Part shown: piece after piece, positions 6,893 to 28,389 of the stretch
Layout of the letters: every line of letters begins with the position of its first letter
Position numbering within the stretch: the stretch's first letter is position 1
Source of the DNA: Nocardia sp. BMG111209
Lineage (GTDB): Bacteria > Actinomycetota > Actinomycetes > Mycobacteriales > Mycobacteriaceae
DNA length: 64,000 nucleotides
Assembly (NCBI RefSeq): GCF_000381925.1
Contig: NZ_KB907308.1
Span: forward strand, 62,001 to 126,000
Direction: 5' to 3'
The notes under the pieces: generated by a model
The model's input: the letters and a program-made list of their open reading frames with translations, nothing else
Told to the model about the DNA's origin: nothing
Database searches by the model: none
Program-made: the position numbers and the translations under genes

Positions 6893-8236
6893 TCATCGTT
6901 CGATCAGGGCGTCGCCGGGGTCTGCGAAGGCGCGCGGGGTCAGGGGTTCGAGTGGGTGGCCGACGGCGATCGCGCCGAGGGGTCGCCAGTCGTCCGGGAG
7001 GCCGAGAACGTCGCGGGTGGCGTCGGCGGCGAAGATCGTCGAGCCGATCCAGCAGCTCCCGATTCCCTTGACGGCCAACGACATCAGCAGGCCCTGGACC
7101 GCCGCGCCCGCGGCGACGGTGAACATGGTGGACTCGGCCGCCGTCCGGCGTTCGTCCGGATAGGCGTGAGCGCCCTCCGGAACGCAGATCGGAACGATCA
7201 GTTCGCGGGCCCGGAAGAGGATGTTGCCCTTGGCCATTCGTTTCTCGGCGGTATCGCGGTCGTGGCCGTCGCCGGTGAGATCGGCGCGCCAGCGGTCCCG
7301 CAGACCGGTGAGCAGAGCGCGGCGAACCTTGTTCGTGCGGATCCAGACGAATCGCACGGGACGGGTGTGATGCGGTGCCGGGGCGGTGAGCGCCTCCGCG
7401 ATCGCCGTCCGGATCGCGGCGGGATCGACCGGGTCGTCGGAGAAGTGACGGATCGAGCGCCGCAATCGGAGCGCGTCCGCGCGGCCGCGTGTGACGGCCT
7501 CGTCGGTGCCGAGCCGGAACAGGTCCTGATCCGGGCGGCGGACGAGGTCTCGTGCGGTCGAGCCGTCGTCCTTCGGCCGCAGGCCGCGGACCACGGCGAC
7601 GGGCACGCCGCCGAGTTTGCCTTTCACGAGATCGGCCGCCGCAGCGATCTCGTCGGCCGTCGCCACCTCGGTGACGGACAGTTCGTTGCCGTGCGCGTCG
7701 CGCGCACCGGCGTAGGCGTGCAGGACGGCCAGACCGGCTGCGCCGATCGCGGCGTCGGTCTGGCCGACGCGCCAGGCCCGGCCGAGCGTGTCGGTGACCA
7801 CCACCGCGACCCGCACACCGAGCGCAGCCTCGACGGCTTCGCGGAGGGCCCGTGCGCTCGCATCGGGATTCGACGGCAGCACAACGAGTTCGGTGGCGGC
7901 GACGTTCGATCCGTCGATCCCGGAGGCGGCCTGCACGATTCCGAGGTGGTTCTCGGTGACGACGATGCGGCCCCGGCGCGCCACCACCCGGACGGCTTCC
8001 CGGGTGACGAGGTCGCGCCGGGCGGCCTCACGGGCGGCGGGATCGGCGGGGACGGTCACGATCCGGCCCTCCACCTTGGAGATCACCTTGCTGGTGACCA
8101 CCAGGACGTCGTCGTCCGCGAGCCACGGCGCCGCGGCGACGATCGCCGCGGCCAGGTCGTCGCCGGGCCGGAATTCGGGCAGGCCCGGCACCGGCCGGAT
8201 CTCGATCGAGCCGCCGGGGGCGTGATCGTCGGTCAC
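6893..8236 (-). CDS. fbiB: coenzyme F420-0:L-glutamate ligase / dehydro-F420-0 reductase FbiB
   Basis: The 447-residue length is that of the two-domain actinobacterial FbiB. Residues 1 to about 245 are the CofE-like GTP-dependent ligase that adds glutamates to F420-0 ([15 protein letters not shown] early in the domain). Residues from about 255 are a nitroreductase-fold FMN domain ([13 protein letters not shown], then [17 protein letters not shown]) that reduces dehydro-F420-0. The GTG start at 8236 overlaps the fbiA stop as GTGA. It is the last gene of the minus-strand run that begins at the operator near 19.2 kb, now cut off from that promoter by the insertion sequence at 10-11.7 kb. Confidence 0.95.
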
Positions 8237-9201
8237 CGCGGGGCTCCGATCAGGTCGATGGCGGTGCGGACCAGGTCCGCGGTGGTGTCGGGGCCGGTCA
8301 TGATCAGGGGGACGCCGCGCACCTCGACGCCGGGGATGTCGGCGGTGTCGGTCTCGTGGACGAGCCAGCCGTCGAGGATCCCGGGCCCGTACCAGCGGCC
8401 GACCGCCTCGGCGGTGGTCCCCACGCCGAGAATGTCCAGACATCGATCGGCCATGCCGCGCAACGGTTTTCCGCCGATGATCGGCGAGATGCCGACCACC
8501 GCCGCGGTGGTGCCGCGCACCGCGGCACGGATGCCGGGCACCGCCAGGATCGCGCCGATACTGGCGACGGGATTCGACGGCGCCAGCAGCACGACATCGG
8601 CGCCCTCGATCGCCTCGGCCACTCCCGGCGCCGGTGTCGGCCGCTCGGCGCCGACGCGCGTGAAGCCGTGGGTCGGCACCTGCGCGCGGTAGCGGACCCA
8701 CCACTCCTGGAAGTGGATCGTGCGCCGCTGCCCGTCGCCGGGATCGGTGATCACGACGTGGGTTTCGCTCCGGTCGTCGGTGGCCGGGACCAGCTGCACG
8801 CCCGGTTGCCAACGGCCGCACAGGGTTTCGGTGATCTCCGACAACGGGTGGCCGGCGCGCAGCATCCGGGTGCGGATCAGGGCGGTGGCGAGGTCCCGAT
8901 CACCGAGTCCGAACCAATCGGGTTGCCTGCCGTAGGCGGTCAGTTCCGCTGTGGCATTCCAGGTTTCGCCGGACCGGCCCCAGCCGCGAGCCTTGTCGAC
9001 GCCACCGCCGAGGGTGTACATGCAGGTGTCGAGGTCGGGGCAGATCCGCAGGCCGTGCATCCACGCGTCGTCGCCGACATTGACCACGGCGGTGATGTGG
9101 TGCGCGGCAACGGCTTCCGGCCGGTTCGCGCCGAGCAGCCGGCGCACGCCGAGCAGGAAGCGGGCGCCGCCCACGCCGCCGGTCAGTACGGTCACGTCCA
9201 C
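8233..9201 (-). CDS. fbiA: phosphoenolpyruvate (2-phospho-L-lactate) transferase FbiA/CofD
   Basis: This 322-residue protein joins the activated three-carbon phosphate from the CofC/FbiD product to Fo, giving (dehydro-)F420-0. The N-terminal [16 protein letters not shown] is the signature of the CofD family, followed by the conserved [11 protein letters not shown] and [11 protein letters not shown] segments that bind the nucleotide-linked substrate and Fo. The GTG at 9201 lies 10 bp after the MFS stop codon, so the gene has no room for its own promoter. It was evidently co-transcribed with the interrupted MFS gene. With fbiB, fbiC and cofC in the same island, the F420 pathway is complete. Confidence 0.95.
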
Positions 9202-9211
9202 GATCGGTCCA

Positions 9212-10087
9212 TCACTGTCCGCCGGAATGTTCGGTGGTTCCGCTCGCGGCGGATACGGCGCCGCGGCCGGTCAGCAGTCCCAGGGACCACAGCAGGGTGG
9301 CCACGGCCCCGATGCCCGCGAGCACGCAGAAGATGACGACCGGTGGCCGGCCCGCGAGCACACCGCCGAGGATCGGCCCGCACACACCGCCGATCCGGCC
9401 CAGTCCCGAGACGAATCCGAGTACGCTGGAACGGATTTCGGCGGGGAAGTACGTGGCGACGAAGCCGAGCACGATCGGCTGCGTGCCGCCGGTCCCGGCT
9501 CCGGCGAGGAACAGGAAGACGTACAGCAGGGCCACCGGCATGTGGATCGCGAGGGCGAAGACCGCGACCGCGCCGATCGCGATCGCGGCCACGACCGCGC
9601 GGCGACTTCCGATCCGGTCGGCGATCCAGGATCCGCCGGACGCCCCCGCCGCGGCTCCGGTGCTGAAGATGAGCAGGAAGACCAGGGACGATCCGAGCGA
9701 GTGACCGTCGGCCTTCATGACCTGCGGCAGCCAGGTCAGCAGCCCGTACCACTGGATCTGGCTGCAGAAACTCACGAAGGTGACCACCGCGAGGGCCCGT
9801 CCGCCGGTGCGGCCGAGACCAGATACGGCGGCACGCAGGGCCGTTCGGGGGGCGGGGCCGGCCGGTTGCGCGCCGTCCGTGGTGGGCACCCAGCGGCCGA
9901 GTCGCACCGCGGCGACCGGAACCACGGTCAGCAGGGGAACGATGCCGCCGAGGAAGAAGACGCCACGCCAGTTCAGCGCGTTCAGGAAGGCCAGCGCCGT
10001 GAGTGCGGCGACGACGCCACCGAGCGGGAGACCGGCCAGGACCGCGCCGTTGACGAAATTCTTCCGCTGCGCGGGCGCGACGCTCAT
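9212..10087 (-). pseudogene. MFS aromatic-acid-type permease, C-terminal part, cut by IS
   Basis: This is the last two thirds of a major-facilitator permease; the first third lies at 11752-12137 on the other side of an insertion sequence. Removing 10083-11751 (the element plus one copy of CTCAT) restores an open frame of 418 residues reading ALAMSVAPAQRKN across the join. The fragment holds the sixth to twelfth membrane segments. The cytoplasmic loop motif (ADRIGSRRAV) is present in the second half. The intact protein resembles the AAHS (aromatic acid:H+ symporter) family. The transporter is presumably inactive in this strain. Confidence 0.85.
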
Positions 10088-11751
10088 CCTGAATCCACTG
10101 ACGGGGGTTTCGTGCTGGTCCGCGCGCCTGCGGCGCGCGGACCAGCGGGTTTCGGGCGTGGGGTAGCCGCTGGCCTGGCCAGCTTTTCCACGTGAGTCCT
10201 CGGTTCGGGCCCGTCGGGCGGGGATGGTCAGATGCTGTCGGGTTGTGGTGGTGTGTAACCGATTGTGTTGTGCCACAACGTGAGCCATGCGTCCGCCCAG
10301 GGCCAGCAGCGGGGCAGGTGCAGGATGGGACGCCGTTGAGGGCGAGCGAGCCGGGCGGGGATGGTGATGATTTTGCGGCGCAGGGTCGATCCGCGGGCCC
10401 GGCCGAGTCGGCCACCGGCCAGTATTCCGGCGGTGCGCAGCAGGTTGTGGGCGATCGCGGCGCACAGGACCCAGGCGAAGTTGGCGCCGAATTTCCCGGA
10501 CGGAATGTGAGCCAGTGGCCCGTCGATCAGGTCGGCGAACACGGTTTCGATGATGGCGTGTTTGCGGTGGGTGATGTCGGCATCGGCGACGGGCTCGGTG
10601 GAGTTGGTGAAGAACGGGTGATACCGCCAGACCGGGAACAGGGCATCGGGGTATCGGGCGTCTTTCACCCGGCGCACGATCAGCCTCGCGGTGGTCCGGT
10701 CTTTCGTGGAAGCGAAAGCGGTATAAGAGATTTCGGCGACCTCGGCGTCGGAGATCCACTCACCGGTATCGGGATCACGCACGGCACCGGGATACCGCAC
10801 CGGAGTCCATTGGTCTTCGCCGATCGCGGTGATCGCGGCGTTGACCGCCGAATTCTTGGTCAGTACCAGCGAGAACTGTGCCCCGGCGCGCAACGCGGCG
10901 CACACGACTTTGCGGGTGCCGTATGCGGAGTCCCCACGCACCAGCACGATGCCGGTGGCGCGGGCGGCACGAGCGGTGCCGATCGCGGCGGTAACCATCG
11001 ATGCGGCACCTTTGCCCGAGCCGGTCTTACCTGCGCGTAGCCGTATCCCGGCGATCACCGGTGCCGCCAGGTCGGTGCTGATCGTGGTTGCCAGGGGTGA
11101 AAGTCCTTTGCGGAGAACCTTTTTCCCAGCAATCTTCGTGTGCCCGTACGACGCGCCCTGCTTCTGGTGGCCATAGACCGGGCGCAGCAGCGAATCGATA
11201 TCGACGAAGGTCCGCACAGCCGCACCGGGCAACAGATCCGCGCGCGCGGTCAAGGCCAGCAGATGCTCGCGCATCACCGACTCCAACTGCTTGGCGTGAC
11301 CGAATGTGAACTCCCGCAACAGAGTCCCGACCGTCGAGGGCGCATACACGCCACTGAACAGCGTCTTGCACCCGCCGCTGCGCAGCAGACCGATATCGTC
11401 GATGCTGTCCGCACCCGCACACATCCCGGCGATCAACGTGGCCAGTTTCGGTGCCGGGTTCACCGACCCGGACTTGACTCGTGGCGCGTCGATGGCAATT
11501 TTCTCGGTCAACAGCCTGGTCAGACCCGTCTGCTCGGCCAGGGTCATCACCGGAACCAACCCCGCCACCGACACGAGGCCATCATCATCGAACCTCGCCG
11601 AGGACTCGGCGAACCTGTGGAACAATCGCACTGAAAGTGTCTTTCGGAACTTGTCTTGGTTGTTGTGTGGTAACTCCAATCATCCCAGGTCAGAAGGCAC
11701 TTTCTTCATTTCGACACACCCAAATACACCGAATTCATCGGTGGATTCAGG
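10088..11751 (-). mobile_element. IS1380-family insertion sequence
   Basis: The element is 1,664 bp. Its ends are inverted repeats, CCTGAATCCACTGACG at the left and CCTGAATCCACCGATG read inward from the right, differing at two of 16 positions. It is flanked by CTCAT at 10083-10087 and 11752-11756, a target duplication of four to five bases as expected for the family. One transposase gene fills most of it. The perfect duplication and the exact restoration of the host gene frame suggest a recent insertion. Confidence 0.92.
10228..11679 (-). CDS. IS1380-family transposase
   Basis: This 483-residue DDE-type transposase has the acidic residues in the expected contexts: FVDIDSLLRPVYGHQKQG (first Asp), VLVRGDSAYGTRKVV (second Asp) and KHAIIETVFADL (Glu). 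The GHQKQGASYGHTKIAG segment is characteristic of IS1380-family actinobacterial elements. The frame is intact, so the element may still be mobile. A TTG at 11679 gives the longest frame; a GTG 16 codons further in is an alternative start. It is oriented the same way as the interrupted operon, so readthrough from the element could in principle transcribe fbiA-fbiB. Confidence 0.92.
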   Translation of the reverse strand: MELPHNNQDKFRKTLSVRLFHRFAESSARFDDDGLVSVAGLVPVMTLAEQTGLTRLLTEKIAIDAPRVKSGSVNPAPKLATLIAGMCAGADSIDDIGLLRSGGCKTLFSGVYAPSTVGTLLREFTFGHAKQLESVMREHLLALTARADLLPGAAVRTFVDIDSLLRPVYGHQKQGASYGHTKIAGKKVLRKGLSPLATTISTDLAAPVIAGIRLRAGKTGSGKGAASMVTAAIGTARAARATGIVLVRGDSAYGTRKVVCAALRAGAQFSLVLTKNSAVNAAITAIGEDQWTPVRYPGAVRDPDTGEWISDAEVAEISYTAFASTKDRTTARLIVRRVKDARYPDALFPVWRYHPFFTNSTEPVADADITHRKHAIIETVFADLIDGPLAHIPSGKFGANFAWVLCAAIAHNLLRTAGILAGGRLGRARGSTLRRKIITIPARLARPQRRPILHLPRCWPWADAWLTLWHNTIGYTPPQPDSI

Positions 11752-12137
11752 CTCATGGCCAGCGCGACCGCGGTCGGTACGACACCGCCGAGTCCGAGGC
11801 CGGCCGCGAACCGCGCGATACCCAGCAGTGCGGCGGTGGGTGCCACCGCGCACAGGATCATGCCGACGGAAAACCAGGTGATCGAGAGCAGGAACAATCG
11901 CCGGGCACCGTATCGGTCGGCGAGTACGCCGGTGACCACGGATCCGATGGCCATGCCCAGAATCGCCGCGCTGGCGATCACGCCGACGCGCGCGGTGGTC
12001 AGACCCCAATCGGCGTAGTGGAGCAATTTCGGTGTCGCGGCGCCGAATACGGCGAGGTCGTAGCCGTCGGCGGCCACCGCGAGGAAGGCGAGGAGGGCGA
12101 TACCCAGATAGGTGGGCAGGCGAAAACGATTGTGCAC
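11752..12137 (-). pseudogene. MFS aromatic-acid-type permease, N-terminal part, cut by IS
   Basis: The fragment starts at a GTG (12137) with GAGGA upstream and encodes the first four to five membrane segments. It contains the AADGYDLAVFGAA motif, the DG(Y/F)D signature of aromatic-acid:proton symporters such as PcaK/BenK, and the loop GVLADRYGARR between the second and third helices. Reading continues out of frame for the host protein into the insertion sequence and stops at 11706. Its continuation is at 9212-10087. The gene sits between a FabG-like SDR (89 bp upstream) and fbiA, which fits an uptake role for the island's substrate. Confidence 0.85.
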
Positions 12138-12226
12138 AGGGGTCCTCGAAACGAAGAGAAGCCGAAAGTATTTCGGGAGGGGCTGCCGGTGGGATTCCGG
12201 AAAACAGCTAGCGATATTTCGACGCC

Positions 12227-12958
12227 TTACATGTGACGGCCGCCGGTGACCTCGAGCACCGTGCCCGTCATATAGCCGGCGAGGTCGGAGGCGAGGAAAC
12301 ACGCCACCGCCGCCACCTCGGCGGGTTCGCCGAAGCGCCGCATCGGGATCTCGGCCAGTCGCTGCTGCCAGATCTCCGCGCGCATCGTCTCGGTCATCGG
12401 GGTGCGGATCAGTCCGGGCTGGATCGCGTTGATCCGGACACCAAGGTGCGCAACCTCTTTGGCGGCGGCCTTGGTCAGGCCCACGATGGCGGCCTTCGCG
12501 GCACTGTAGTTGGTCTGGCCGACGTTGCCGACCTTGCCCGAGATCGAGGACATGTTCACGATCGACCCGCCGCCGTGCTCGCGCATGTGCGCGGACGCGG
12601 CCCGCACGCCGAGCCACGTGCCCTGGACATGGGTGTCGATCACCAGCCGGAAGTCGTCGAGCGACATCGTCCGCATGGTGGCGTCGCGCAGGACGCCCGC
12701 GTTGTTGACCATGATGTCGAGGCCGCCGTAGGCGGTGACCGCGGCCGCGACGAGTGCGGTCACCTCGTCCTCGGACGTGACGTCGCACCGGATCGCTTGC
12801 GCGGCACCCAGTTCGGCGGCCGCGGCCCGGGCCCGGTCCAGGTCCACATCGCCGAGGACGACATGCGCGCCCTCGGCCACGAACCGCTCGGCGACGGCCA
12901 GGCCGAGGCCCTGGGCACCACCGGTCACCACCGCGACCTTGTCTTTCAGCAACGCCAT
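12227..12958 (-). CDS. SDR family oxidoreductase (FabG-like)
   Basis: This 243-residue classical SDR has TGGAQGLG at residues 12-19, a conserved Asp in CDVTSED (about 59), NNAG at 85-88, Ser138 and the Tyr151-x3-Lys155 pair. The conserved [10 protein letters not shown] loop and the C-terminal [10 protein letters not shown] are those of 3-oxoacyl-ACP/acyl-CoA reductases and 3-hydroxyacyl-CoA dehydrogenases. In this operon (enoyl-CoA hydratase-like and acyl-CoA dehydrogenase-like genes upstream) a role in oxidising a beta-hydroxyacyl-CoA is plausible. It lies 45 bp downstream of cofC and 89 bp upstream of the interrupted MFS gene. Confidence 0.92.
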
Positions 12959-13003: not shown

Positions 13004-13750
13004 TCACGGTTGCCGGGCGAGGACGGGTGTGCCGGAGCGAGACCGGCGCAGCGTGCGCAGGGTTGCGCGCAGGGCCGGGCCCGGCCGTGTCGTGGCGACG
13101 TCCAGCAGATCGGCGAGGTCGTCCACGTCTCGCCGCAGGGATTCGATACCGGGGCAGTCGATCTCGACCGCGCCGGAGTTCAGGTGCGCGCGGCGGGAAC
13201 GCTCGCCGAAACGTGGATCCGGATCCGCGCCCCCGATCGCGGTCAGCAGGGTCGTCCCCACGCGGTGACGGTCCGCGACGAAGGCGCGCTCGTGCCGCGC
13301 GGCCGCCGAGAGTGCTCGGTCCAGATCCACACCGCGCAGGAACGGGAGGTCGGCAGGCAGAACCGCCAGCGGACTGTCCGGCCACAACTCGCGGGCGCGC
13401 CGGGCCCCCGCGCGCACGGCCTCGTTCAGGCCGCGGGCGTCGGGCACGAGTAGGGGCACAACGTCAGGGGCCAGCACCTCGGCCGCGTCCCGGAACCGGT
13501 CCACGACATCCGGGGCCGATACCTCGACCGCGTCCTGGACTCGGTCCACGACGACCACGACCGCCCGGACCTGCGACGCCGCCCGGATCGCCGCGACCGT
13601 ATCCCGGAACATGGCACGTACGACCGCCTGCCGGGTGTGCGGCCGAAGCAGCAGCCGCGATTTCGCGGAGGTGATGTCGCGCTGGGGCACGACGGCCACC
13701 CAGGTTCCGGGCGGGAATTCGCCGGTCCCCGTTGCCGATTCCGCGTTCAT
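13004..13750 (-). CDS. fbiD: phosphoenolpyruvate/2-phospho-L-lactate guanylyltransferase (CofC/FbiD)
   Basis: This 248-residue MobA-like nucleotidyltransferase makes the guanylated three-carbon phosphate used by FbiA. The N-terminal [16 protein letters not shown] is the nucleotide-binding signature with its conserved lysine, and [15 protein letters not shown] holds the metal-binding Asp residues. A later segment, [22 protein letters not shown], matches the conserved substrate-binding end of the family. Its ATG overlaps the fbiC stop codon (ATGA at 13747-13750), so the two are translationally coupled. About 25 residues in the middle ([19 protein letters not shown]) form a near-duplicated acidic insert. 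Confidence 0.93.
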
Positions 13751-19194: not shown

Positions 19195-19203
19195 CGCACT
19201 TCT

Positions 19204-19608: not shown

Positions 19609-20266
19609 GGACCACTCCGTTCACGGCGAGTCCCGAGCGCGTCTTGTAGCGCCGGTTGACGTTGATGAGTACGGCGGTCAGCGGTTCCAGTTGCCGGGCC
19701 ACCCGCAGCGTCCCGCCGTCGATGCCCGGCCGGCCGGTGATCGCGACCGCCAGCCGGGCCACCTCGTCCTTGGCGGCGCGGTCGTCGCCGCAGACGAGCA
19801 CGTCCTCGGGCAGATAACCCTCGTGCCCCCAGAGGTTGATCGCCGAGAGGTGATGGAAGGCGGCGACCACGGTGGCCTGCGGCGCGAGGTCGCGCAGCTG
19901 CTCGGCGGCGCTGCCCTCCGCGACGTCCAGGCCGTAGGCCCCGGCCTTGTCGAAGCCGAGCGGGTTCACGCAGCTCACGACGAGTTTGCCCGCGAGGACG
20001 GGTGCCAGTTCCGTGACCAGTTCCCGGTGGCCGTCGTACGGCACGACCAGTACGACGACGGGACATTCGGCGGCGGCCGACGCGTTGTCGGCGGCGCCGA
20101 CCTGCGCACCGTCGCCGGCGTGCGCGCGCACCTCCGCGGCCGCCTGCTCCGCGCGTGCCACGGACCGTGATCCGATGACCACGGGCCGACCGGCCACCGC
20201 GAACCGATAGGCCAGCCCCTTTCCCTGGGGTCCGGTGCCGCCGACGACGGCGATCTTCTTCGTCAT
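19589..20266 (-). CDS. NADPH-dependent F420 reductase (FNO/NpdG-like)
   Basis: This 225-residue protein transfers hydride between NADPH and F420. The N-terminal KKIAVVGGTGPQGKGLAYR is the NADP-binding motif, with SRS at the end of the second strand for the 2'-phosphate. The later segments VVVLVVPYDGHRELV and VVAAFHHLSAINL match the F420 side of archaeal and actinobacterial FNO. In picrate-degrading rhodococci the equivalent enzyme (NpdG) supplies F420H2 to hydride transferases, and the same job is likely here for the two LLM enzymes. The ATG at 20266 has AGGAG-like bases upstream, 113 bp after the IclR gene. Confidence 0.93.
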   Translation of the reverse strand: MTKKIAVVGGTGPQGKGLAYRFAVAGRPVVIGSRSVARAEQAAAEVRAHAGDGAQVGAADNASAAAECPVVVLVVPYDGHRELVTELAPVLAGKLVVSCVNPLGFDKAGAYGLDVAEGSAAEQLRDLAPQATVVAAFHHLSAINLWGHEGYLPEDVLVCGDDRAAKDEVARLAVAITGRPGIDGGTLRVARQLEPLTAVLINVNRRYKTRSGLAVNGVVHDPRAA

Positions 20267-20379: not shown

Positions 20380-21180
20380 TCAGTCGAGGCCCGCTGTCCG
20401 GTTGGATGCCGGGTAGTCCGCGGGGATGCGTCCGCCGATGTGCGAGCTGATCTCGCGGGATGCCGTGACGAGGTAGTCGGCGATGCCGGCCACCCCCTCG
20501 ACGGTGAGGTCGTCGCCGATGCCGAGCAGGGAGAGGAACAGGCAGGGCGCACCGTCCCGGTCGAACACCGGGACCCCGACGACGTTGAGCTCGGGCCGGT
20601 ATTCGCCGTAGACCGCGCCGTAGCCCTGCGCCCGGAGCTCGGCGAGCTCCGCGGCGGGGTAGCTGACCTGCTCGGCCCGGCCCCGGCTCGGCCACGCCGC
20701 CGCGAGGCGGCTGATCAGCGGCGTGTCCCGGTCGAACCGCGCGCCGACCTCGATGGTGACCTTGACGGGTTTGCGGCTCTCGATCTTCGCGATCGCCGTG
20801 AAGTGCCCGTCCGGCATCGGCTGAATGGCCAGGCAGGCCAGCTCGGTCCGTTCGGCCAGCCACTCCATATAGGTGCGGGAGGCGGCGACCGCCGAGGTCC
20901 GCGCGATCGCGGCCACCCCGAACTCCACCAGCAGCGGCCCGAGGTTGTACCGGCGGGTCTCCTGGTCGTACACGACGAGGCCCTCGACCAGCATGGTCCG
21001 CAGCAGGACCGACGCGGTGCTCTTGGCCAGCCCGCAGCGCTTGGCCAGCTCGGTGAGCGTGGCCCCGGCGGACTGCTGAACCAGCGCCTCGAGCACCCGG
21101 GCGGCGCGCGTGATGGCCGGCACCAGCTGTTCACCCGATTCGTCGGTTGCGTTGCTTCCCAGGCCTTCTGCCTTGGTCAC
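20380..21180 (-). CDS. IclR family transcriptional regulator
   Basis: This 266-residue protein has the winged helix-turn-helix at about residues 25-90 (ATLTELAKRCGLAKSTASVL) and the effector-binding GAF-like domain behind it (ERTELACLAIQPMPDGHFTA, GAVYGEYRPELNVVGVPVFD). IclR regulators commonly respond to aromatic acids or acyl intermediates in degradation clusters. The GTG at 21180 has AGGA five bases upstream. It is encoded inside the operon it probably controls. The shared palindrome GTTCAT-N4-ATGAAC at three promoters of the island has the half-site form expected for this family. Confidence 0.93.
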   Translation of the reverse strand: MTKAEGLGSNATDESGEQLVPAITRAARVLEALVQQSAGATLTELAKRCGLAKSTASVLLRTMLVEGLVVYDQETRRYNLGPLLVEFGVAAIARTSAVAASRTYMEWLAERTELACLAIQPMPDGHFTAIAKIESRKPVKVTIEVGARFDRDTPLISRLAAAWPSRGRAEQVSYPAAELAELRAQGYGAVYGEYRPELNVVGVPVFDRDGAPCLFLSLLGIGDDLTVEGVAGIADYLVTASREISSHIGGRIPADYPASNRTAGLD

Positions 21181-21210: not shown

Positions 21211-21681
21211 TCAGCTGACCGTAGCGGCCCGGCCGACCAGTTCGACGAAGTGGAAGAGGGTGCCGTCGGGGTCGCGGGCGAACAGCAGCCGCCAGCCGCC
21301 GACCCCGTCCGCCCCGATGACGGACTGTGGCGTGTGCAGGAATTCGACGCCCTCGGCGGACAGCCGCGTGTATTCGGCGTCGATATCGTCGGTCAGGATG
21401 GAGAACCGGCACAGGCCCGGGTGCACGAGGTCGCTCTGTGCCCGGCCCTCGGAATGCGCGTCCCGCCATTCGATCAGGTCCAGCATGGCCTCGTCCGGGG
21501 AATCGTTCAGGCGCATGTGCGCGAAGCGCAGCCGGCTCGCGCCCTCGACCATGAACGCGCGCGCGAGGTTGGCGTCGTCCACCTCCTGGTCCTGCATGAC
21601 CTCGAATCCGATGCGCCGATAGAAGGCGATCGAGGCGTCCATATCGGTCACATTGATGCCGACGTGCCAGAACTTTCGCAT
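21211..21681 (-). CDS. VOC family protein (glyoxalase/dioxygenase superfamily)
   Basis: This 156-residue protein has two beta-alpha-beta-beta-beta modules typical of vicinal-oxygen-chelate proteins. Possible metal ligands are His6 in FWHVGINV, His in LVHPGLCRFSI and the late Glu/His in GTLFHFVELVG. It could be a lyase, epimerase or ring-processing enzyme of the pathway. It lies 30 bp upstream of the IclR gene and 55 bp downstream of the acyl-CoA ligase in the same operon. Confidence 0.87.
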   Translation of the reverse strand: MRKFWHVGINVTDMDASIAFYRRIGFEVMQDQEVDDANLARAFMVEGASRLRFAHMRLNDSPDEAMLDLIEWRDAHSEGRAQSDLVHPGLCRFSILTDDIDAEYTRLSAEGVEFLHTPQSVIGADGVGGWRLLFARDPDGTLFHFVELVGRAATVS

Positions 21682-21736: not shown

Positions 21737-23332
21737 TCACGCCGGATGCACCAGCGCGCGGCGCCGGATCTTGCCGGTTTCCGTGCGCGGCAGTTCGGCG
21801 ACCGCCTCGATCTCGCGGGGGCGGGCATGTGGTCCGACCGCATTGGCGACGAGTTCGCGCAGTTCCGTGCGCATCTCGTCGGTGAGCTCGCCGGAGGTCA
21901 ACTGCACGAAGGCCTTGATCCGCTGGCCGGTCTCCGGGTCGGGCAGCCCGACCGCCGCCGCGGCCAGGACCCGCGGATGCCGGCCGAGTACCGCCTCGAT
22001 CTCCGCCGGGCCGATGCGGTAGCCGCGGCTCTTGATCACATCGTCGGCGCGGCCGACGTATTCGAGCCGGCGGCCGTACGCGATCCGCGCGAGATCGCCG
22101 GTGCGGTGCCAACTGTCGGCGGGCGGCACCGGGCGCGCCGACGCGGCGTCCCAATAACCCAGCAGCGCAACCGGATCGGGCAGTTCGAGGGCGATCTCGC
22201 CGACCTCGCCGCGCGCGACCCGGGCACCCTGTTCGTCCAGCAGCGCGATCCGGTGGCCGGGATAGGGCGCTCCCATGGTGTCGTCGTCGACGGATCCGAG
22301 TACGCCGGAATCGCCGATGAGGGCATTGGCCTCGGTCTGGCCGTAGGCCTTGTTGACCGCGTCGCTGAGATTGCGTCGCGCCCAGCCCAATTCGGCCACA
22401 CCGGCCGGTTCGCCGCCGGTGACCACCGCGCGCAGGCGGGCTTGGGCCGGTTTCCCGTGTTCGGCGAACATCCGCAGCACCGACGCCGGCAGGAAGGCCG
22501 TCGTCACGCCGAGGCGGCTCATCGTGTCCAGGGTCGCGCCGGGATCGAAGCGCCGGGGCCGGTGCGCCACCACGGGCACGCCGAGCGACCACGGCACCAG
22601 CAAGCCGAGCATCAGGCCGCCGATCCAGCCCCAGTCCGCGGTGCCGAAATAGATGTCTCCGGGCCGGAACAGCTCGAAGGCGTAATCGACGCCGGCATGT
22701 CCGAGCAGGGCCCGATGTCCGTGCACGATGCCCTTCGGCGCGCCGCTGGTACCCGAGGTGTAGATCAGCAGCGCCGGATCGTCGGCCCGCCGCGGGACCG
22801 GATCGAGCGGGTCGACCCGGCGGATCAGATCCCCGAGTCCCGGGCCGCCGGCGCTGTCCACGGTGAGCACGTCGACGTCGCGCAGGGAACATCCGGTCGA
22901 TTCGAGCCGGTCGACGCCGGGACCGTCGGTGACCACCACGGTCGCGCCGGAATCGACGAGCCGGTGCGTCACCGAGGCACCGGTGAGCAGCCGCGGGACC
23001 GGCACGAGTACCGCCCCCGCGGTCAGCACGCCGAACACGACCTCGGCGGCCTCCACCGACGGATCGAGGTACAGCAGCACCCGGTCCCCGGGCCCGATCC
23101 CGCGGCCCCGGAGGACCGCGGCGATCCGCACCGCGGCCCGCTGGATCCGGCCGAACGTCACCGTTTCGGGCAGGTGGGTCCCGTCGCGCAGCACGGCCAC
23201 GGCGTCGGGATTCTGCGCGAACAGGGCATCCTCGGTGATCGTGTAGTCCGCGGCGGGCACCCAGTCCGCGCGGTGACGGGCCTGGAGCAATCGGCGGACG
23301 GTGCGCGCGGAGGTCAGTCCAGGCGTGCCCAT
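21737..23332 (-). CDS. acyl/aryl-CoA ligase (AMP-forming)
   Basis: This 531-residue ANL-family ligase has YTSGTSGAPKG at residues 191-201, GYWDAASA and TGDLAR in the linker region, the hinge SRGYRIGPAEIE, and the catalytic lysine in TETGKIRRR (Lys521). The overall pattern is closest to medium-chain and benzoate-CoA-ligase-like enzymes rather than long-chain FadD proteins. The start at 23332 overlaps the aldehyde dehydrogenase stop by 19 bp. It would turn the island's acid substrate or an aldehyde-derived acid into a CoA thioester. Confidence 0.9.
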   Translation of the reverse strand: MGTPGLTSARTVRRLLQARHRADWVPAADYTITEDALFAQNPDAVAVLRDGTHLPETVTFGRIQRAAVRIAAVLRGRGIGPGDRVLLYLDPSVEAAEVVFGVLTAGAVLVPVPRLLTGASVTHRLVDSGATVVVTDGPGVDRLESTGCSLRDVDVLTVDSAGGPGLGDLIRRVDPLDPVPRRADDPALLIYTSGTSGAPKGIVHGHRALLGHAGVDYAFELFRPGDIYFGTADWGWIGGLMLGLLVPWSLGVPVVAHRPRRFDPGATLDTMSRLGVTTAFLPASVLRMFAEHGKPAQARLRAVVTGGEPAGVAELGWARRNLSDAVNKAYGQTEANALIGDSGVLGSVDDDTMGAPYPGHRIALLDEQGARVARGEVGEIALELPDPVALLGYWDAASARPVPPADSWHRTGDLARIAYGRRLEYVGRADDVIKSRGYRIGPAEIEAVLGRHPRVLAAAAVGLPDPETGQRIKAFVQLTSGELTDEMRTELRELVANAVGPHARPREIEAVAELPRTETGKIRRRALVHPA

Positions 23333-24762
23333 ACGCTCTTCTCCTTGGTGAAGCTCTCGACGGCGGCCTGACCCAGGTCGCTGCCGTAGCCGCTCTGCCC
23401 GAAGCCCCGGTACGGGGACGCGGGATTGAGCACACCCCAGCTGTTGATCCACACGTTGCCCGCGTCGAGGGTCTGCGCGAACCGCAGCGCGCGGCCCACG
23501 TCGCGGGTGAAAATGCCTGCGGCCAAACCGAATACGGTGTCGTTGGCGAGGGTGATCGCCTGCTCCTCGCCCTCGAACGGCAGTACCGACAGCACGGGCC
23601 CGAAGATCTCCTCCCGCGCGATCCGCATATCCGCGGTGACGTCGGTGAACAGCGTCGGCCGGTAGTAGAAGCCCGGATCCGTATCTGGCGCCGGATCGCC
23701 GCCGCTGACCAGCGTGGCGCCCTGCTCGGCCCCCGACACGACGTACGAGTGCACCGACGCGCGCTGTTCGGCGCTGATCAACGGGCCGATCTCGGTCTCC
23801 CGGTCGAGCGGGTCGCCGACCCGGGCGGACTCGACCCGCGCGCGGAGGAGTTCGATCACCTCGTCGTAGATGGGCCGTTCGACGAGCAGCCGGCTGGCCG
23901 CCGTGCAGGTCTGGCCCTGGTTGCTGTACATCGCCTGGAAGACCACGGCCGCAACGGCTTTCGGGGACGAGTCGCCGAAGGCCACGAGCGCAGACTTGCC
24001 GCCGAGTTCGAGCGAGGCGGTGATGAGCCGGTCGGCCGCCAGGCCCCCGATCTGCTTACCGATCTCGGTCGAACCGGTGAAGGTCACCTTGCCGACCCCC
24101 GGATGCCGCACCAGCGCGTTGCCCGCCACCGAACCGCGACCGGGCAGGACGTTCACCAGCCCCGGCGGCAGCCCGGCCGCCAGCGCCAGCTCACCGAGCG
24201 CGACCGGCACCAGCGGCGCGAGTTGCGCGGGCTTCAGCACGATCGCGTTACCCGTCGCGAGCGCCGGGGCGATCTTCCAGATCGCTTGCACCGCAGGGAA
24301 ATTCCACGGCGTGATGGCACCCACCACCCCGATCGGCTCGCGCACGGTGTAGTTGAGGAATCGGCCCGGCGCGGGTGTGGTGCGACCCTCGATCTTGGTG
24401 ACCAGACCCGCGAAGTACTCGAGGGTCTCGATCATGATCGGCAGGTCGACCCCGAGCGATTCGCGGATCGGCTTACCCATGTCCCGGCTCTGCAACTCGG
24501 CCAGTTCGACCTTGTGTTCCTCGAGGAGCGCGGCATAGCCGAACAGCAGCCGGGTGCGCTGGGCCGGCCGCATACGCTGCCAGACCCGGGCCGCGGCCGC
24601 GGCCGCCTCGACGGCACGGGCGACGTCGTCGGCCGTGGCCTCGGCGACGGTCGCCAGGTGCGACCCGTCGGCCGGATCGATCGAATCGAAGGTCGCCCCG
24701 GTCGAGGACGGACCCGGTTGATCGCCGATGACGAGGGGAACCGAAGTGGTGAGTGCCTGCAC
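23314..24762 (-). CDS. aldehyde dehydrogenase family protein
   Basis: This 482-residue NAD(P)-dependent aldehyde dehydrogenase has all the family residues: GAITPWNFPA with the catalytic Asn, TGSTEIGKQIG, the general base Glu in SLELGGKSALV and the nucleophile Cys in GQTCTAASR. The late EEIFGPVLSVLPF motif is also present. It would oxidise an aldehyde to the acid that the overlapping downstream ligase activates, a sensible ALDH-ligase pair. Thirteen bases separate it from the second LLM gene. Confidence 0.93.
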   Translation of the reverse strand: MQALTTSVPLVIGDQPGPSSTGATFDSIDPADGSHLATVAEATADDVARAVEAAAAAARVWQRMRPAQRTRLLFGYAALLEEHKVELAELQSRDMGKPIRESLGVDLPIMIETLEYFAGLVTKIEGRTTPAPGRFLNYTVREPIGVVGAITPWNFPAVQAIWKIAPALATGNAIVLKPAQLAPLVPVALGELALAAGLPPGLVNVLPGRGSVAGNALVRHPGVGKVTFTGSTEIGKQIGGLAADRLITASLELGGKSALVAFGDSSPKAVAAVVFQAMYSNQGQTCTAASRLLVERPIYDEVIELLRARVESARVGDPLDRETEIGPLISAEQRASVHSYVVSGAEQGATLVSGGDPAPDTDPGFYYRPTLFTDVTADMRIAREEIFGPVLSVLPFEGEEQAITLANDTVFGLAAGIFTRDVGRALRFAQTLDAGNVWINSWGVLNPASPYRGFGQSGYGSDLGQAAVESFTKEKSVWARLD

Positions 24763-24775: not shown

Positions 24776-25663
24776 TCAGGCCAGTTTGTGAGCGGTGGGC
24801 AGGACGGCCTCGGCCAGCTCGGCGAGCTCGTCCATGGTGGCCTCGAGCGTGTCGTGCTCGAACGAGGTGTCGCAGACGAAGTGCGTGACGCCGAGTTCGC
24901 CGTAGGCCTCGATCGTCTCGGCGTTGTACGGCGCCTTGCGCAGCGGCCGCGCGGTGAGGGTGATCTCGGCCATGTCGCGGCCCGCCTCCTCGGCGTACTG
25001 CCGGAGGGTGGCCAGGTAGCCGGCGTACTCCTCCGGCCCGATCGCCAGCGGGTGCCAGCCGTCGCCGATGGCGGCGATGCGGCGCAGCGACGCGGTGCTG
25101 TACCCGGCGAACCAGACCGGGATCCGGCCGCGCACCGGCTTCGGATACATCTTGAAGTCGTGCAGGTGGTAGAAGTCGCCGTCGAAGTCGACCTCGTCCG
25201 CCGACCACATGTGCCGCATCGCGTTCACCATCTCGGTGACGCGCTTGCCGCGATCCTTGAAAGGCGCGCCCAGCACGTCGAACTGTTCCTTCATCCAGCC
25301 CACGCCGATGGCGACCGACAACCGGCCGCGCGACAGCACGTCGATGCTCACCAGCTGCTTACTGGTCTGGACCAGCGGACGCCACGGCAGGATCAGGCAG
25401 GACGTGCCGAGTTCCATCCGCTCGGTGGCGGCCGCGGCCCAGGTCAGCGAGGTGAGGCAGTCCAGATACGGCGTGGCGGGCTCCCACAGGAACTTGCCGT
25501 CGGCGGTGTACGGATAGGCCGTCTCGACGCGGGTCGGCAGGGCGACGTGGTCGGTCATCCACAGCGAGTCGAAGCCGACCTTCTCCGCGAACCGCGACAC
25601 CTCCGTGATCGCTTCGGGCCCCGCCCACGGTCCCGCTCCGGGGATCCTGATTCCGACCTTCAT
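24776..25663 (-). CDS. LLM class F420-dependent oxidoreductase
   Basis: This 295-residue luciferase-like TIM-barrel protein resembles the Rv2161c-type F420 group: KVGIRIPGAGPWAG at the N terminus, KVGFDSLWMTDHVALP, ERMELGTSCLILPWRPLVQTSK, RLSVAIGVGWMKEQF and a C-terminal GVTHFVCDTSFE. The ATG at 25663 has AAGGAAG seven bases upstream. It lies between the CoA transferase and the aldehyde dehydrogenase. Together with the LLM protein at 18.1 kb it gives the island two candidate F420H2-dependent hydride transferases, an arrangement also seen in picrate degradation, where two successive hydride transfers occur. Confidence 0.9.
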   Translation of the reverse strand: MKVGIRIPGAGPWAGPEAITEVSRFAEKVGFDSLWMTDHVALPTRVETAYPYTADGKFLWEPATPYLDCLTSLTWAAAATERMELGTSCLILPWRPLVQTSKQLVSIDVLSRGRLSVAIGVGWMKEQFDVLGAPFKDRGKRVTEMVNAMRHMWSADEVDFDGDFYHLHDFKMYPKPVRGRIPVWFAGYSTASLRRIAAIGDGWHPLAIGPEEYAGYLATLRQYAEEAGRDMAEITLTARPLRKAPYNAETIEAYGELGVTHFVCDTSFEHDTLEATMDELAELAEAVLPTAHKLA

Positions 25664-25691: not shown

Positions 25692-26894
25692 TCATCGGAC
25701 GACCCCGTCGGCCCGGAGGGCCTCGATCCGGTCGTTCCGACAGCCGAGATCGCCGAGGATCTCGGTGGTGTGCTCGCCCAGCGAGGTCGGTGGGCGGTGC
25801 ACGCGTCCCGGGGTTCCGGAGAGCTTGACCGGGAGACCCGGTACCCGCAGCGGCCCGAGTTCGTCGTGGGTGATGTCGACGACCAGGTCCAGGGCCCGGA
25901 TCTGCGGGTGGTCCACGGCCTCGCGGTAGTCGAGGATCGGGGCACAGATGATGTCGTGCGCGCAGAGCAGCGCGACCACGTCGTCCCGGTCGTGCTCGGC
26001 GAACCAGGGCGCGAGCGCGGTGTCCAGGGCCTCGCGGTTCGCCAGCCGGTCCGCGGCCGCGGCGAAGCGCGGATCGTCGAGCAGTTCCCCGGCGCCGATC
26101 GCGCGGGCCAGCTTGCCGAAGTGGCGGTCGTTGAAGGCGACGACGTGCACCGCGCCGCCGTCGCGGGTCGCGTAGGCGTTGTAGGGGGCGTAGAAATTGC
26201 TGCCGTTACCCGCCTTGGCCTGGACGTAGTCCGCGAGCAGGTACTGCCCGAGCCACGGCGTCTGCAGATGGAACAGCGCGCCGACCAGGGAGACCGAGCC
26301 GCTCTGTCCCTCGCCCGTGCGCTGTTTCGCGAACAGCGCCACCAGGGCCGCGAGCGCGACCAGATAGCCCGCCGCGCTGTCGGCCACCGGCGGTCCGGCC
26401 TTCACCGGCATCCCGCCGGGGACACCGGTCGCCTCCATGAATCCGGTGAGCGCCTGGGCCACCGGATCCATCGCCGGGCGGCCCGCGAGGGGCCCGCTGT
26501 CGCCGTATCCGCTGACATTGAGGCAGATCAGGTGCGGGTGCCGTTCCCGGAGCTGCTCGGCGGTGAGCCCGAAGCGCTCACGGACGGCCGGCAGCATGTT
26601 CTCGATGAGCACGTCGGCCGTCGCGCAGAGCTCGTGGAACAGCTCGCGGCCCGCCGCCGTGCGCAGGTCGAGCGCGAGGGCCCGCTTGTTCCGGTTCACC
26701 CCGGAATAGACCCCGCTCATCCCGTCGCGCCCCGGGCCGAACGTCCGCGATTCGTCGCCGTCGATCGGTTCGACCTTGATGACGTCGGCGCCGAAGTCCG
26801 CGAGCAGCGACGCACCCAGCGGCCCGGCAACCATCGTCGCGGCGTCGATCACCCGGATGCCGGTCAGCGCCTCGGTTCGGTGGGAGAACCCCAT
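25692..26894 (-). CDS. CaiB/BaiF family CoA transferase
   Basis: This 400-residue class III CoA transferase opens with LTGIRVIDAATMVAGPLGASLLADFGADVIKVE. The catalytic Asp is expected in GRPAMDPVAQALTGFM. These enzymes move CoA from a donor thioester to a carboxylic acid, so the island has both an ATP-dependent and a transfer route to CoA activation. The ATG at 26894 is preferred over the GTG just before it because GGAG lies six bases upstream. It is the first gene of the eight-gene operon, with the tandem operator ten bases upstream of the start. Confidence 0.93.
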   Translation of the reverse strand: MGFSHRTEALTGIRVIDAATMVAGPLGASLLADFGADVIKVEPIDGDESRTFGPGRDGMSGVYSGVNRNKRALALDLRTAAGRELFHELCATADVLIENMLPAVRERFGLTAEQLRERHPHLICLNVSGYGDSGPLAGRPAMDPVAQALTGFMEATGVPGGMPVKAGPPVADSAAGYLVALAALVALFAKQRTGEGQSGSVSLVGALFHLQTPWLGQYLLADYVQAKAGNGSNFYAPYNAYATRDGGAVHVVAFNDRHFGKLARAIGAGELLDDPRFAAAADRLANREALDTALAPWFAEHDRDDVVALLCAHDIICAPILDYREAVDHPQIRALDLVVDITHDELGPLRVPGLPVKLSGTPGRVHRPPTSLGEHTTEILGDLGCRNDRIEALRADGVVR

Positions 26895-26904
26895 CACTCG
26901 CTCC

Positions 26905-26939
26905 GTTCATTATGATGAACTGAAATCATTATCTGGAAC
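26905..26939. promoter_or_regulatory. tandem operator, copies 3 and 4 of the island motif
   Basis: GTTCATTATGATGAAC (26905-26920) has perfect six-base arms; AATCATTATCTGGAAC (26924-26939) is a degraded copy starting 19 bp further on. The order (better copy nearer the gene), the 19-bp period and the ten-base distance to the start codon repeat those at 19204-19238. Position over the promoter/ribosome site suggests repression by roadblock or promoter occlusion. Confidence 0.65.
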
Positions 26940-27046
26940 TCCATGGACGTTACGAGCGCTTCCCGTCCGCTGTCAAGGGGTCGGATCTCGATGCTTGACA
27001 GGCTTCGCCGCAGGTCGTTACCTTCGTGTTCCATATACGGTATCGA

Positions 27047-27062
27047 GTTCATAATGATGAAC
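27047..27062. promoter_or_regulatory. operator, copy 5 of the island motif
   Basis: GTTCATAATGATGAAC is a perfect-armed palindrome 38 bases before the start of the plus-strand NMT1-like gene. It differs from the copy at 26905 only in the central four bases. A weak half-site (GTTCCATA) begins 19 bp upstream at 27028, so the tandem arrangement may be present here too. It would tie the divergent two-gene unit to the same regulator. Confidence 0.65.
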
Positions 27063-27100
27063 CATCGGGAAACGGGCGGAATCCGCCACAAAGGACGGAC

Positions 27101-27943
27101 ATGATTCTTCTGGGCTATCGCGATCACAACGTCCACGAACTGCTGTGCCACGAGATCGCCGACCGCGCGGGCTACTACGACCGGCTGGGCGTCGAGGTCC
27201 GCGCGGTGCCCGGCGCCGACCATCCCGACGCCGCACTGTCCGCCGGGCTCGGTGGCTCGCTGATCGAAACGCTACGGGGACAACGCCGTTGGAAGGTCGC
27301 GCTGGTGCACACGCTGCACCCGTTGTTCTGGATCTGGACCCGGAGGTCGGACTTCCGCTCGGCGGGGCCGACCGTCCTCGCCGGCTTTCCGGCCGGGTCG
27401 ATCGTCGACGCCCTCACGCGGAAGATGCTGGAAAATCATTGGGCGGCAGCCGAATCGCCCGAGACGCTACGCTATCCCGGCGGAAGTCTCGGCGATCGCC
27501 GCCGGCTCGAGGCGTTGACCTCCGGGGCCGCCGACGCGGCGGTGATCGGTTCCGCGTTCGCACCCAGCGCCGTGGTCCGGCTCGGGCTCACCGATTCGCT
27601 GTTCTTCGGCGCCACCCTGCGGTTCCCCACCGCGGGCCTCGCGGTGGACAGCGCGCGAATGAGCCTGGACGACCCGGCGGTACGGAAGATCGTCGCCGCG
27701 CAGACCGCGGCGCTCACGGCGATCGGCGAGCGCGATCCCGTGGCCCTGGACGCCGTGACCTCGCTGCTGCACGACGCCGGTCGGCCGGACGCACACCATT
27801 TCCTGGCGGACTACCTGTCGCCGCAGTACGGGCCCACCCCCGAGGACGTCCGGACCGCCGGCGCGGACGCACTCGACTGGCTGGCCGCCGCGCTGGGCAC
27901 CGGCACCGACGCCGCCACCGACTTCTACGAGGCGATCCGATGA
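27101..27943 (+). CDS. NMT1/THI5-like substrate-binding-fold protein without signal peptide
   Basis: This 280-residue protein resembles the periplasmic-binding-protein fold of NMT1/SsuA-type ABC receptors (GYYDRLGVEVRAVPGADHPDAAL, LRYPGGSLGDRRRLEALTSGAADAAVIG). It has neither a signal peptide nor a lipobox, and no permease or ATPase gene is nearby, so it should be cytoplasmic. Possible roles are an enzyme such as a decarboxylase or synthase of this fold, or a ligand-binding accessory. The ATG at 27101 has AAGGACGG at a good distance. The gene is divergent from the CoA transferase operon and carries the same operator, and is coupled to the OsmC-like gene by ATGA. Confidence 0.7.
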   Translation: MILLGYRDHNVHELLCHEIADRAGYYDRLGVEVRAVPGADHPDAALSAGLGGSLIETLRGQRRWKVALVHTLHPLFWIWTRRSDFRSAGPTVLAGFPAGSIVDALTRKMLENHWAAAESPETLRYPGGSLGDRRRLEALTSGAADAAVIGSAFAPSAVVRLGLTDSLFFGATLRFPTAGLAVDSARMSLDDPAVRKIVAAQTAALTAIGERDPVALDAVTSLLHDAGRPDAHHFLADYLSPQYGPTPEDVRTAGADALDWLAAALGTGTDAATDFYEAIR

Positions 27944-28389
27944 CCTCACCACGACGGGAACACCTCACCGTCCACGCCCGGTTCGGCGACCACGGCACCA
28001 CGATCACCGCGCGCGACCACGAACTGACGATCGACGAGGCCCCGCGATACGGCGGTCACGATCTCGGGGCGAATCCGGTCGAGCACCTGCTCGCCGGACT
28101 CGCCGCCGCCTCCCTGGTGGTGCTGCGGCTGCTCGGCGAGACCACGATCGCCGAGTCCGCGACCCTCACCGTCGCCGCGCGCCTGAACGTCGATCACGTG
28201 ATGGGAGCCGACGACGCCGCGGTCATCGAACTGATCGAACTGGATTGGCGGGTACCGACCGCCGCCGACGCCGAGCGGTTGCGCGCGGCACTGCCCGAAC
28301 TGGCGCGCCGCCGGCCGGGACAGGCCCTGGTCGATGCCGCGGCGGCCGTCCGCGAAACGGTGTCCGTGTCGGCGACCGCGGACCGATAG
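27940..28389 (+). CDS. OsmC-like protein lacking both redox cysteines
   Basis: This 149-residue protein has the OsmC/Ohr layout: an N-terminal beta part (ITARDHELTIDEAPRYGGHDLGANPVEHLLAGLAAASLVV) leading into the long central helix, and a second beta-alpha half. Canonical OsmC/Ohr peroxidases have a Cys in the central helix (for example LAGCT) and another later on. Here the first place reads LAAASL, and the protein has no Cys at all, so peroxide reduction by thiols is impossible. A structural, binding or hydrolase-like role is open. Its start overlaps the preceding stop codon. Confidence 0.75.
   Translation: MTSPRREHLTVHARFGDHGTTITARDHELTIDEAPRYGGHDLGANPVEHLLAGLAAASLVVLRLLGETTIAESATLTVAARLNVDHVMGADDAAVIELIELDWRVPTAADAERLRAALPELARRRPGQALVDAAAAVRETVSVSATADR

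Follow-up and report, generated by a model that had tools for sequence, protein, structure and literature searches.

The minus strand of a 64,000-nucleotide window from Nocardia sp. BMG111209 (contig NZ_KB907308.1, positions 62,001 to 126,000, assembly GCF_000381925.1; "the window" below means this whole stretch) carries an array of genes, running from 26897 down to 6893, that codes first for proteins like those of the npd (nitrophenol degradation) operon and then for the enzymes that make cofactor F420. A first-pass annotation made from the letters had placed the four F420 biosynthesis genes (fbiA, fbiB, fbiC and fbiD) in one array with an F420 reductase, two LLM-type oxidoreductases and a set of catabolic genes. 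NCBIfam and Pfam profile searches confirm that observation; the interpretation that went with it, a self-contained and inducible route for the reductive breakdown of an aromatic compound, is partly supported.

Gene content of the array

In the order of transcription, the array opens with a CaiB-type CoA-transferase III at an npdB-like position (25692..26897; PF02515, 414 bits), followed by LLM2, a TIGR03619 oxidoreductase at the hydride transferase position of npdC (24776..25663; 230.6 bits against a cut-off of 166.9), an aldehyde dehydrogenase (npdD-like position, 23314..24762), an AMP-forming acyl-CoA ligase (npdE-like position, 21737..23332), a glyoxalase/VOC-fold protein (npdF-like position, 21211..21681; PF00903, 55.2 bits), an IclR-family regulator (npdR-like position, 20380..21180), the NADPH-dependent F420 reductase NpdG (19589..20266; TIGR01915, 204.5 bits against 149.8) and a NIPSNAP-family protein of 105 amino acids at the npdH position (19291..19608; PF07978, 52.6 bits). 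This last gene had been overlooked in the first-pass gene list, the content of which is otherwise as described. The second part of the array comprises the Mer-like LLM1 at the hydride transferase position of npdI (18145..19209, with the start more likely at 19194), a crotonase-superfamily protein (npdJ-like position, 17450..18148), an acyl-CoA dehydrogenase (npdK-like position, 16305..17453), the FO synthase FbiC (CofGH; 13747..16308; NF006687, 1428 bits against 1018), the guanylyltransferase FbiD (CofC; 13004..13750; TIGR03552, 128.6 bits against 105), an SDR-family oxidoreductase (12227..12958), an MFS transporter in two pieces, FbiA (CofD; 8233..9201; TIGR01819, 385 bits against 257) and FbiB, an F420-0 glutamate ligase with a C-terminal nitroreductase-family domain (6893..8236; NF009810, 698 bits against 304).

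These family calls rest on NCBIfam bit scores set against each model's own cut-off, with Pfam cut-offs as a complement. FbiA, FbiB, FbiC, FbiD, NpdG, LLM2 and the SDR protein score above the NCBIfam cut-off; LLM1, the aldehyde dehydrogenase, the ligase, the CoA-transferase, the crotonase, the acyl-CoA dehydrogenase, the IclR regulator and the glyoxalase-fold protein are clear matches below the cut-offs of models that mostly describe narrow families. Pfam cut-offs are passed by LLM1, LLM2, the glyoxalase-fold protein and the CoA-transferase, and the aldehyde dehydrogenase, ligase and regulator are in addition conserved in relatives. The four Fbi reading frames are free of internal stops, and FbiC keeps both radical-SAM CxxxCxxC motifs.

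The reductase and the two LLM proteins thus share one array, and the genome holds no second match to NpdG at E ≤ 1e-6. Ten of the eleven solved structures that match LLM1 at E ≤ 0.001 are named as Mer or as F420-dependent (the eleventh is a "luciferase family protein"), and with a family profile all six solved chain sequences found at E ≤ 1e-10 are F420-dependent Mer (E about 3e-28). Because its nearest solved relatives at that threshold are all Mer, LLM1 looks to be of the F420 rather than the flavin mononucleotide (FMN) type. Mer of methanogens is the nearest family to LLM1 among solved structures, yet a distant one (131 bits against an NCBIfam cut-off of 276), and the position of LLM1 in the cluster fits NpdI. 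LLM2 belongs by its score to TIGR03619, a family that is F420-dependent by name.

Occurrence in relatives

A scan of 84,980 species genomes for LLM1 by exact short peptide patterns, which makes the count a lower bound, returned at least eight loci with LLM1 72-86% identical, spread over five named genera: Rhodococcus koreensis, R. jostii, a Marmoricola metagenome-assembled genome, two Streptomyces, two Nocardioides and an Actinomadura. Searches of the order (298 genomes, E ≤ 1e-60) and of the phylum (396 genomes, E ≤ 1e-30) found LLM1 in the Nocardia genome only, misses being possible with five to six candidates per genome scored among the matches listed. Plasmid records gave 26 matches, none at ≥60% identity. 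In R. koreensis DSM 44498, npdG (E ≤ 1e-6) and LLM1 (E ≤ 1e-8) each find a single match, and the two lie inside the cluster.

The window's gene order from CaiB to fbiC is kept in loci L011, L012, L017 and L018. In the Marmoricola locus L013 (3127-7599) and the Nocardioides locus L015 (3119-7492), genes for an ABC transporter of the branched-chain type and its binding protein stand between the ligase and the VOC-fold gene, where the window and Rhodococcus carry instead, further on, an MFS transporter of the aromatic-acid/H+ symport (AAHS) type. L014 has no IclR gene between the VOC-fold gene and npdG, an IclR relative (66%) lying further upstream. The Nocardioides jensenii locus L016 (1451-7895) is a decayed remnant in which the aldehyde dehydrogenase and ligase genes are mostly gone and no cluster genes follow LLM1; this genome has one FbiC match. 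CaiB is 73-88% identical in the six of eight relative loci first found to hold it and 75% in two loci added later, LLM2 83-94% in the six of eight that contain it, and the NIPSNAP gene is present in all eight at 57-81%.

The cofactor genes travel with the cluster to different extents. In seven of the eight relatives the acyl-CoA dehydrogenase gene is immediately followed by fbiC, and fbiD follows fbiC in all six whose stretch extends that far; the SDR gene adjoins fbiD in four relatives too. The pair fbiA-fbiB lies behind the cluster in R. koreensis, and in R. jostii the start of fbiA is seen before the contig end cuts the gene.

Duplicate F420 genes and the FbiC lineage

The fbi set in the cluster is an additional one, since second copies of fbiA, fbiC and fbiD are scattered elsewhere in the 9.14 Mb genome (5 contigs), each over its cut-off: fbiC at C1:4774108, fbiA at C2:1629398 and fbiD at C2:543809. 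The search covered these three genes, and the prospect raised in the first-pass annotation, that the window might hold the only F420 genes of the genome, does not hold. Two FbiC copies are rare: 98 of 396 phylum genomes have FbiC at E ≤ 1e-200, and this genome is the only one with a pair, scoring in the rows with a match being limited to two candidates per genome.

The FbiC of the window is 75-90% identical to the other cluster copies, as against 64-66% to host copies, that of N. jensenii included. The seven relatives other than N. jensenii each have a cluster FbiC and a host copy, to which R. jostii adds a third at 47%. A maximum-likelihood tree of 35 FbiC rows sets the eight cluster copies on one side of a branch supported at 100/100, with 26 others opposite and the third R. 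jostii copy assigned to neither group. The clade returns at 100/100 in a second tree, to which three plasmid copies were added and from which four distant rows (the third R. jostii copy and three others) were dropped. Within it, the Actinomadura cluster copy joins Nocardioides and Marmoricola (100/99), whereas the Actinomadura host FbiC joins Streptomyces on a branch that is not firm (85/84). Because the two copies group with different genera, this placement suggests that the cluster has moved by transfer.

A second fbiA match (E ≤ 1e-40, whole genomes) was found only in the Nocardia genome and in R. koreensis; each of the six genomes outside Rhodococcus has one, and the R. jostii assembly has none. 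The fbiA of the window is 75% identical to the R. koreensis cluster copy, 74% to the R. koreensis housekeeping copy and 72% to the housekeeping copy of its own genome. The first-pass idea of complete F420 synthesis within the cluster stands for the window and R. koreensis; the six relatives outside Rhodococcus have no more than that single fbiA match per genome. FbiD is reported, in an excerpt of one source, to be inactive without FbiA (PMC8498797), and clusters with fbiC and fbiD alone would therefore lean on the FbiA of the host.

Plasmid-borne fbiC was considered as the same phenomenon and rejected: the cluster FbiC has matches in 61 plasmid records (E ≤ 1e-50), the best, in eight records, at 60-80% identity, and of three neighbourhoods examined none has a copy that joins the cluster clade in the tree. 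The fbiC of pRHL3 (R. jostii RHA1) is an ordinary Rhodococcus copy, and the Tsukamurella plasmid FbiC groups with a host copy. On Paenarthrobacter ureafaciens pCZY (L135, 8863-13252), typed as conjugative, cofD and fbiC sit amid CoA-linked genes; this FbiC groups with Nocardioides-type copies and makes a separate case of travelling F420 genes. Among phage records the cluster FbiC found a single match, annotated as mqnC.

Gene overlaps and operator-like palindromes

From LLM1 onward the genes are tightly packed, with start codons in the window that allow a four-base overlap at the junctions LLM1 to crotonase, crotonase to acyl-CoA dehydrogenase, acyl-CoA dehydrogenase to fbiC, fbiC to fbiD, and fbiA to fbiB. 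The fbiC-fbiD overlap is possible in all seven loci that extend to fbiD (the window included), and that between acyl-CoA dehydrogenase and fbiC in five of eight loci, with 31-33 bases between the genes in the other three. The first-pass annotation had taken the genes to share transcription units, which fits the overlaps from LLM1 through fbiD; a single unbroken unit is more doubtful, as fbiA-fbiB lie beyond an insertion sequence (IS).

A palindrome near GTTCAT-N4-ATGAAC, downstream of a CTTGAC element, was recognized by eye before CaiB in the window and in all eight relatives; for L056 the position of the site comes from a motif scan. In the window the site before CaiB (GTTCATTATGATGAAC, 26905..26920) and one before the divergent gene pair upstream (GTTCATAATGATGAAC, 27047..27062) are exact to the pattern, and two more, 19 bases apart and with one to two mismatches, precede LLM1 (19204-19219 and 19223-19238). 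The window has eight strand matches at five places, one of which (5877) falls inside a SLAC1 gene, compared with a mean of 0.40 in shuffled sequences, none of 100 of which reached eight. A score matrix trained only on the CaiB sites of the eight relatives, with no window sites, scores these three locations at 26.5, 25.9 and 23.3; in 2,967 random 128-base stretches of the window the 99% level was 10.5 and the highest score 14.7. At ≥12 bits the palindrome stands before LLM1 in eight of nine loci (seven of the eight relatives), and a site before the first gene of the divergent pair is seen in L062 and L015 too.

The LLM1-crotonase-acyl-CoA dehydrogenase-fbiC-fbiD unit has its own operator-like site, common with the first half of the cluster. 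The only exact palindromes in the genome are the two in this cluster, and allowing one mismatch adds eleven, among which is the LLM1 site but no site at a housekeeping fbi gene; the stretches around the housekeeping fbiC, fbiA and fbiD (the match with about 1.5 kb on each side) show no site at 9 bits. The palindrome is probably an IclR-type operator, a candidate to which the IclR protein of the cluster would bind. The co-regulation of fbiC-fbiD with the pathway, already proposed in the first-pass annotation, finds support in the overlaps of these genes and in the operator-like palindrome that they share with it.

The IS1380 element and the split transporter

What had been read as an intact aromatic-acid MFS permease is a gene split by an IS1380-family insertion (10088..11751, minus strand; NF033539, 312.7 bits against 180), with inverted ends CCTGAATCCAC, a CTCAT target repeat on both sides and a transposase gene at 10228-11679. 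The 5' piece (11706..12140, minus strand) matches the AAHS transporters as a fragment, below cut-off (TIGR00895, 108 bits), and the 3' piece (9212..10087, minus strand) is 72% and 67% identical to the MFS genes of R. koreensis and R. jostii, in both of which the gene is unsplit.

Flanking genes and other features of the window

Beyond fbiB lies a gene for a SLAC1/TDT anion channel (5607..6620, minus strand; PF03595, 107.8 bits). A SLAC1-type channel recurs beside the cluster in three of nine loci, including those of R. koreensis (L062) and Marmoricola (L013), and one might guess at a nitrite outlet. On the other side of the array, the divergent pair on the plus strand consists of a gene (27101..27943) whose product has no Pfam or NCBIfam match and is solute-binding-protein-like by eye only, and an OsmC-like gene (27940..28389; NF041052, 30 bits, below cut-off). 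Relatives of the first occur in L013, L015 and L062 at 55-71% identity and in L014 and L018 at about 30%, and the OsmC-like gene follows it in L013, L015 and L062 too. Both Streptomyces loci have a muconolactone-isomerase-family gene between this relative and CaiB (L014 1948-2250; L018 1680-1982); PF02426 was tested on the L014 copy, to which the L018 copy is 88% identical. In the entries L054 (7509-16479) and L055 (5265-11304), genes near the end look by eye like recombinase and transposase genes. Elsewhere in the window, at 49312-53650 on the plus strand, genes for a Family 2B encapsulin shell, an encapsulin cargo terpene cyclase, a geranyl diphosphate 2-C-methyltransferase and an isopentenyl diphosphate isomerase are consecutive, presumably an encapsulin operon of the 2-methylisoborneol type.

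Comparison with known systems

The gene order of the window appears to match that of the picrate and 2,4-dinitrophenol operon of Rhodococcus opacus (erythropolis) HL PM-1, which we take to be npdB-C-D-E-F-R-G-H-I-J-K; this cluster is said to have been described by Heiss in 2002 and Nga in 2004, and F420-dependent picrate catabolism in Nocardioides simplex FJ2-1A was reportedly treated by Ebert in 1999 and 2001, work cited in PMC8498797 and PMC5352752. We further assign hydride transfer to NpdC and NpdI, the role of reductase to NpdG and that of tautomerase to NpdH; NpdR would be a repressor of the IclR type with two binding regions, one in the ORFA-npdB interval and one in the npdH-npdI interval, and the palindromes were found before these regions entered the comparison. 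Measured against this order, of which only C, G, H, I and R are firm by function, the window has a gene of a fitting family at each of the eleven positions: the reductase, an LLM protein at each of the two hydride transferase positions and a small protein between npdG and npdI, together with the IclR regulator, CoA ligase, aldehyde dehydrogenase, CoA-transferase, crotonase and acyl-CoA dehydrogenase in order. Palindromes lie in both of the regions that NpdR presumably binds. Because the gene order fits, the first-pass view that the cluster has no known match, with the npd operon cited only as a contrast, is probably wrong.

The window and seven of the eight relatives may differ from HL PM-1 in that their operon runs on into fbiC, and into fbiD where the stretch extends; the HL PM-1 cluster is not known to do so. 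One source (PMC5352752) places the F420:NADPH oxidoreductase of R. opacus and N. simplex in a single operon with the hydride transferases that act on picrate and dinitrophenols. N. simplex FJ2-1A is like the window in this respect, and unlike it in that the excerpts concerned do not mention cofactor-synthesis genes for its operon (PMC5352752, PMC8498797). An F420H2-dependent picrate reductase is listed, in part of one of these sources, for a few Rhodococcus, Nocardia and Nocardioides (PMC8498797), and the npd name, in the excerpt of another, is used too for an unrelated oxidative cluster of Arthrobacter (PMC6193132). A search of titles and abstracts in the open-licence literature, a scope outside which the original npd papers lie, found no report of fbi genes in npd or picrate clusters. 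Compared with the housekeeping fbiA-fbiB, fbiC and fbiD of actinobacteria, the cluster codes for the same enzymes, with the same fused FbiC; unlike housekeeping FbiC, the cluster FbiC forms a separate clade, and the operator-like site was not found in the genome's own housekeeping stretches.

Proposed function and alternative explanations

We think it likely that the cluster is an npd-type operon that has acquired an F420 factory of its own, the new part appearing to be fbiC-fbiD after npdK (with fbiA-fbiB as well in the window genome and Rhodococcus). For the reactions on substrate, the repressor binding and the induction we infer the following course. NpdG would load F420 with a hydride from NADPH. 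An electron-poor phenol, 2,4-dinitrophenol or picrate for example, would then receive two hydrides from LLM1 and LLM2, in the positions of NpdI and NpdC, and hydride adducts would form. A proton shift would fall to the NIPSNAP protein in the NpdH position, nitrite would leave, a crotonase- or VOC-fold enzyme would open the ring, and the aldehyde dehydrogenase, acyl-CoA ligase, CoA-transferase, acyl-CoA dehydrogenase and SDR protein would burn the ring-opened acid. Reductive, F420H2-driven breakdown of an aromatic compound, as first proposed, is still the best reading, but the CoA and beta-oxidation genes would fit such a ring-opened acid instead of the CoA-activated aromatic acid that had been suggested as the starting point. 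The IclR-type repressor, in the NpdR position, would hold the palindromes before npdB, npdI and the divergent pair until lifted by substrate. Since the npdI-npdJ-npdK unit overlaps at its end with fbiC and fbiD, its induction would also raise the synthesis of FO and the coupling of FO to the tail precursor, and the cofactor pool would grow with demand. Copies of fbiA-fbiB stand behind in the window genome and in R. koreensis, here with the IS1380 element ahead of them.

More broadly, we lean toward seeing in this a catabolic operon that travels together with a private supply of its cofactor, inducible by the substrate. An FbiC-FbiD lineage, with an FbiC distinct from all the housekeeping copies in the comparison, would have co-evolved with an F420-hungry pathway under the same repressor, and a cell would expand its F420 pool only on meeting the pollutant; the set would later have been completed with fbiA-fbiB in Rhodococcus and the window genome.

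Several observations weigh against this picture. By sequence, the best solved match of LLM2 is the FMN-dependent SfnG (E 5e-18), ahead of Fgd, and the first-pass reading of the LLM proteins as F420 enzymes looks right for LLM1 and is less clear for LLM2. The pair fbiA-fbiB is beside the cluster in none of the four non-Rhodococcus relatives whose locus reaches far enough, and the IS1380 element may cut fbiA-fbiB off from the operon, or alter their expression. On the side of control, L014 is without a good palindrome before LLM1 (11.2 bits in one scan, below 12 in the other), ten one-mismatch palindromes lie elsewhere in the genome, and an automatic promoter scan of the window, in which the CTTGAC element is unscored, found no more than chance would give. 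Terminator-like stems number ten against 5.6 expected from shuffles, and one on the minus strand (12176-12162) falls between the SDR and transporter genes. Membership in the npd kind, moreover, would stand on gene names, order and repressor sites taken as background, together with indirect evidence.

The strongest alternative keeps the machinery and changes its purpose: the natural substrate would be some other electron-poor aromatic or heteroaromatic compound, with nitrophenol use as a side activity. This bears on the natural role, the enzymes and their control being compatible with the npd-type explanation, and it strikes us as a serious possibility, if short of a probable one. In its favour, Streptomyces, Actinomadura, Nocardioides and Marmoricola carry the cluster too, the transporters differ by lineage between the AAHS and the branched-chain ABC types, and the two Streptomyces loci have the muconolactone-isomerase-family gene upstream. 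On the other hand, the sole npdG match of R. koreensis DSM 44498 lies in the cluster; this is the type strain of its species, which was described under the title "a 2,4-dinitrophenol degrading bacterium" (a reference title in PMC9300504), and it is assumed here to degrade dinitrophenol by the F420 route; the recurring SLAC1-type channel, too, is what a nitrite-releasing pathway might want.

It seems unlikely that the fbi genes merely hitch-hike, as duplicates that came to lie next to the operon and are expressed constitutively. The fbiA data lend this idea something, since the window copy differs almost as little from host copies as from the other cluster copy, and the pair fbiA-fbiB was seen next to the cluster in the window and Rhodococcus only, here beyond the IS element; fbiC-fbiD speak otherwise, with fbiC so regularly behind the acyl-CoA dehydrogenase gene, a single clade that tracks the cluster and not the hosts, and an overlap into fbiD possible in every locus that reaches it. 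Least probable is a pair of FMN monooxygenases in an oxidative pathway, with the F420 genes serving something else, for which the SfnG match of LLM2 speaks and against which stand the Mer and F420 matches of LLM1, the score of LLM2 above the cut-off of an F420-named family and the presence in the same array of the genome's only NpdG match.

Implications

F420 in actinobacteria is usually regarded as a housekeeping cofactor. If the npd-type operon with its own F420 factory is correctly read, FO synthase and FbiD placed behind the pathway's own repressor site would clearly exemplify a cofactor supply that is matched to demand, and would go some way to explaining why picrate-type pathways function once transferred. 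The order npdI-npdJ-npdK-fbiC would then provide a sequence signature for finding F420-dependent degraders, and the unit itself an inducible F420 module for engineers.

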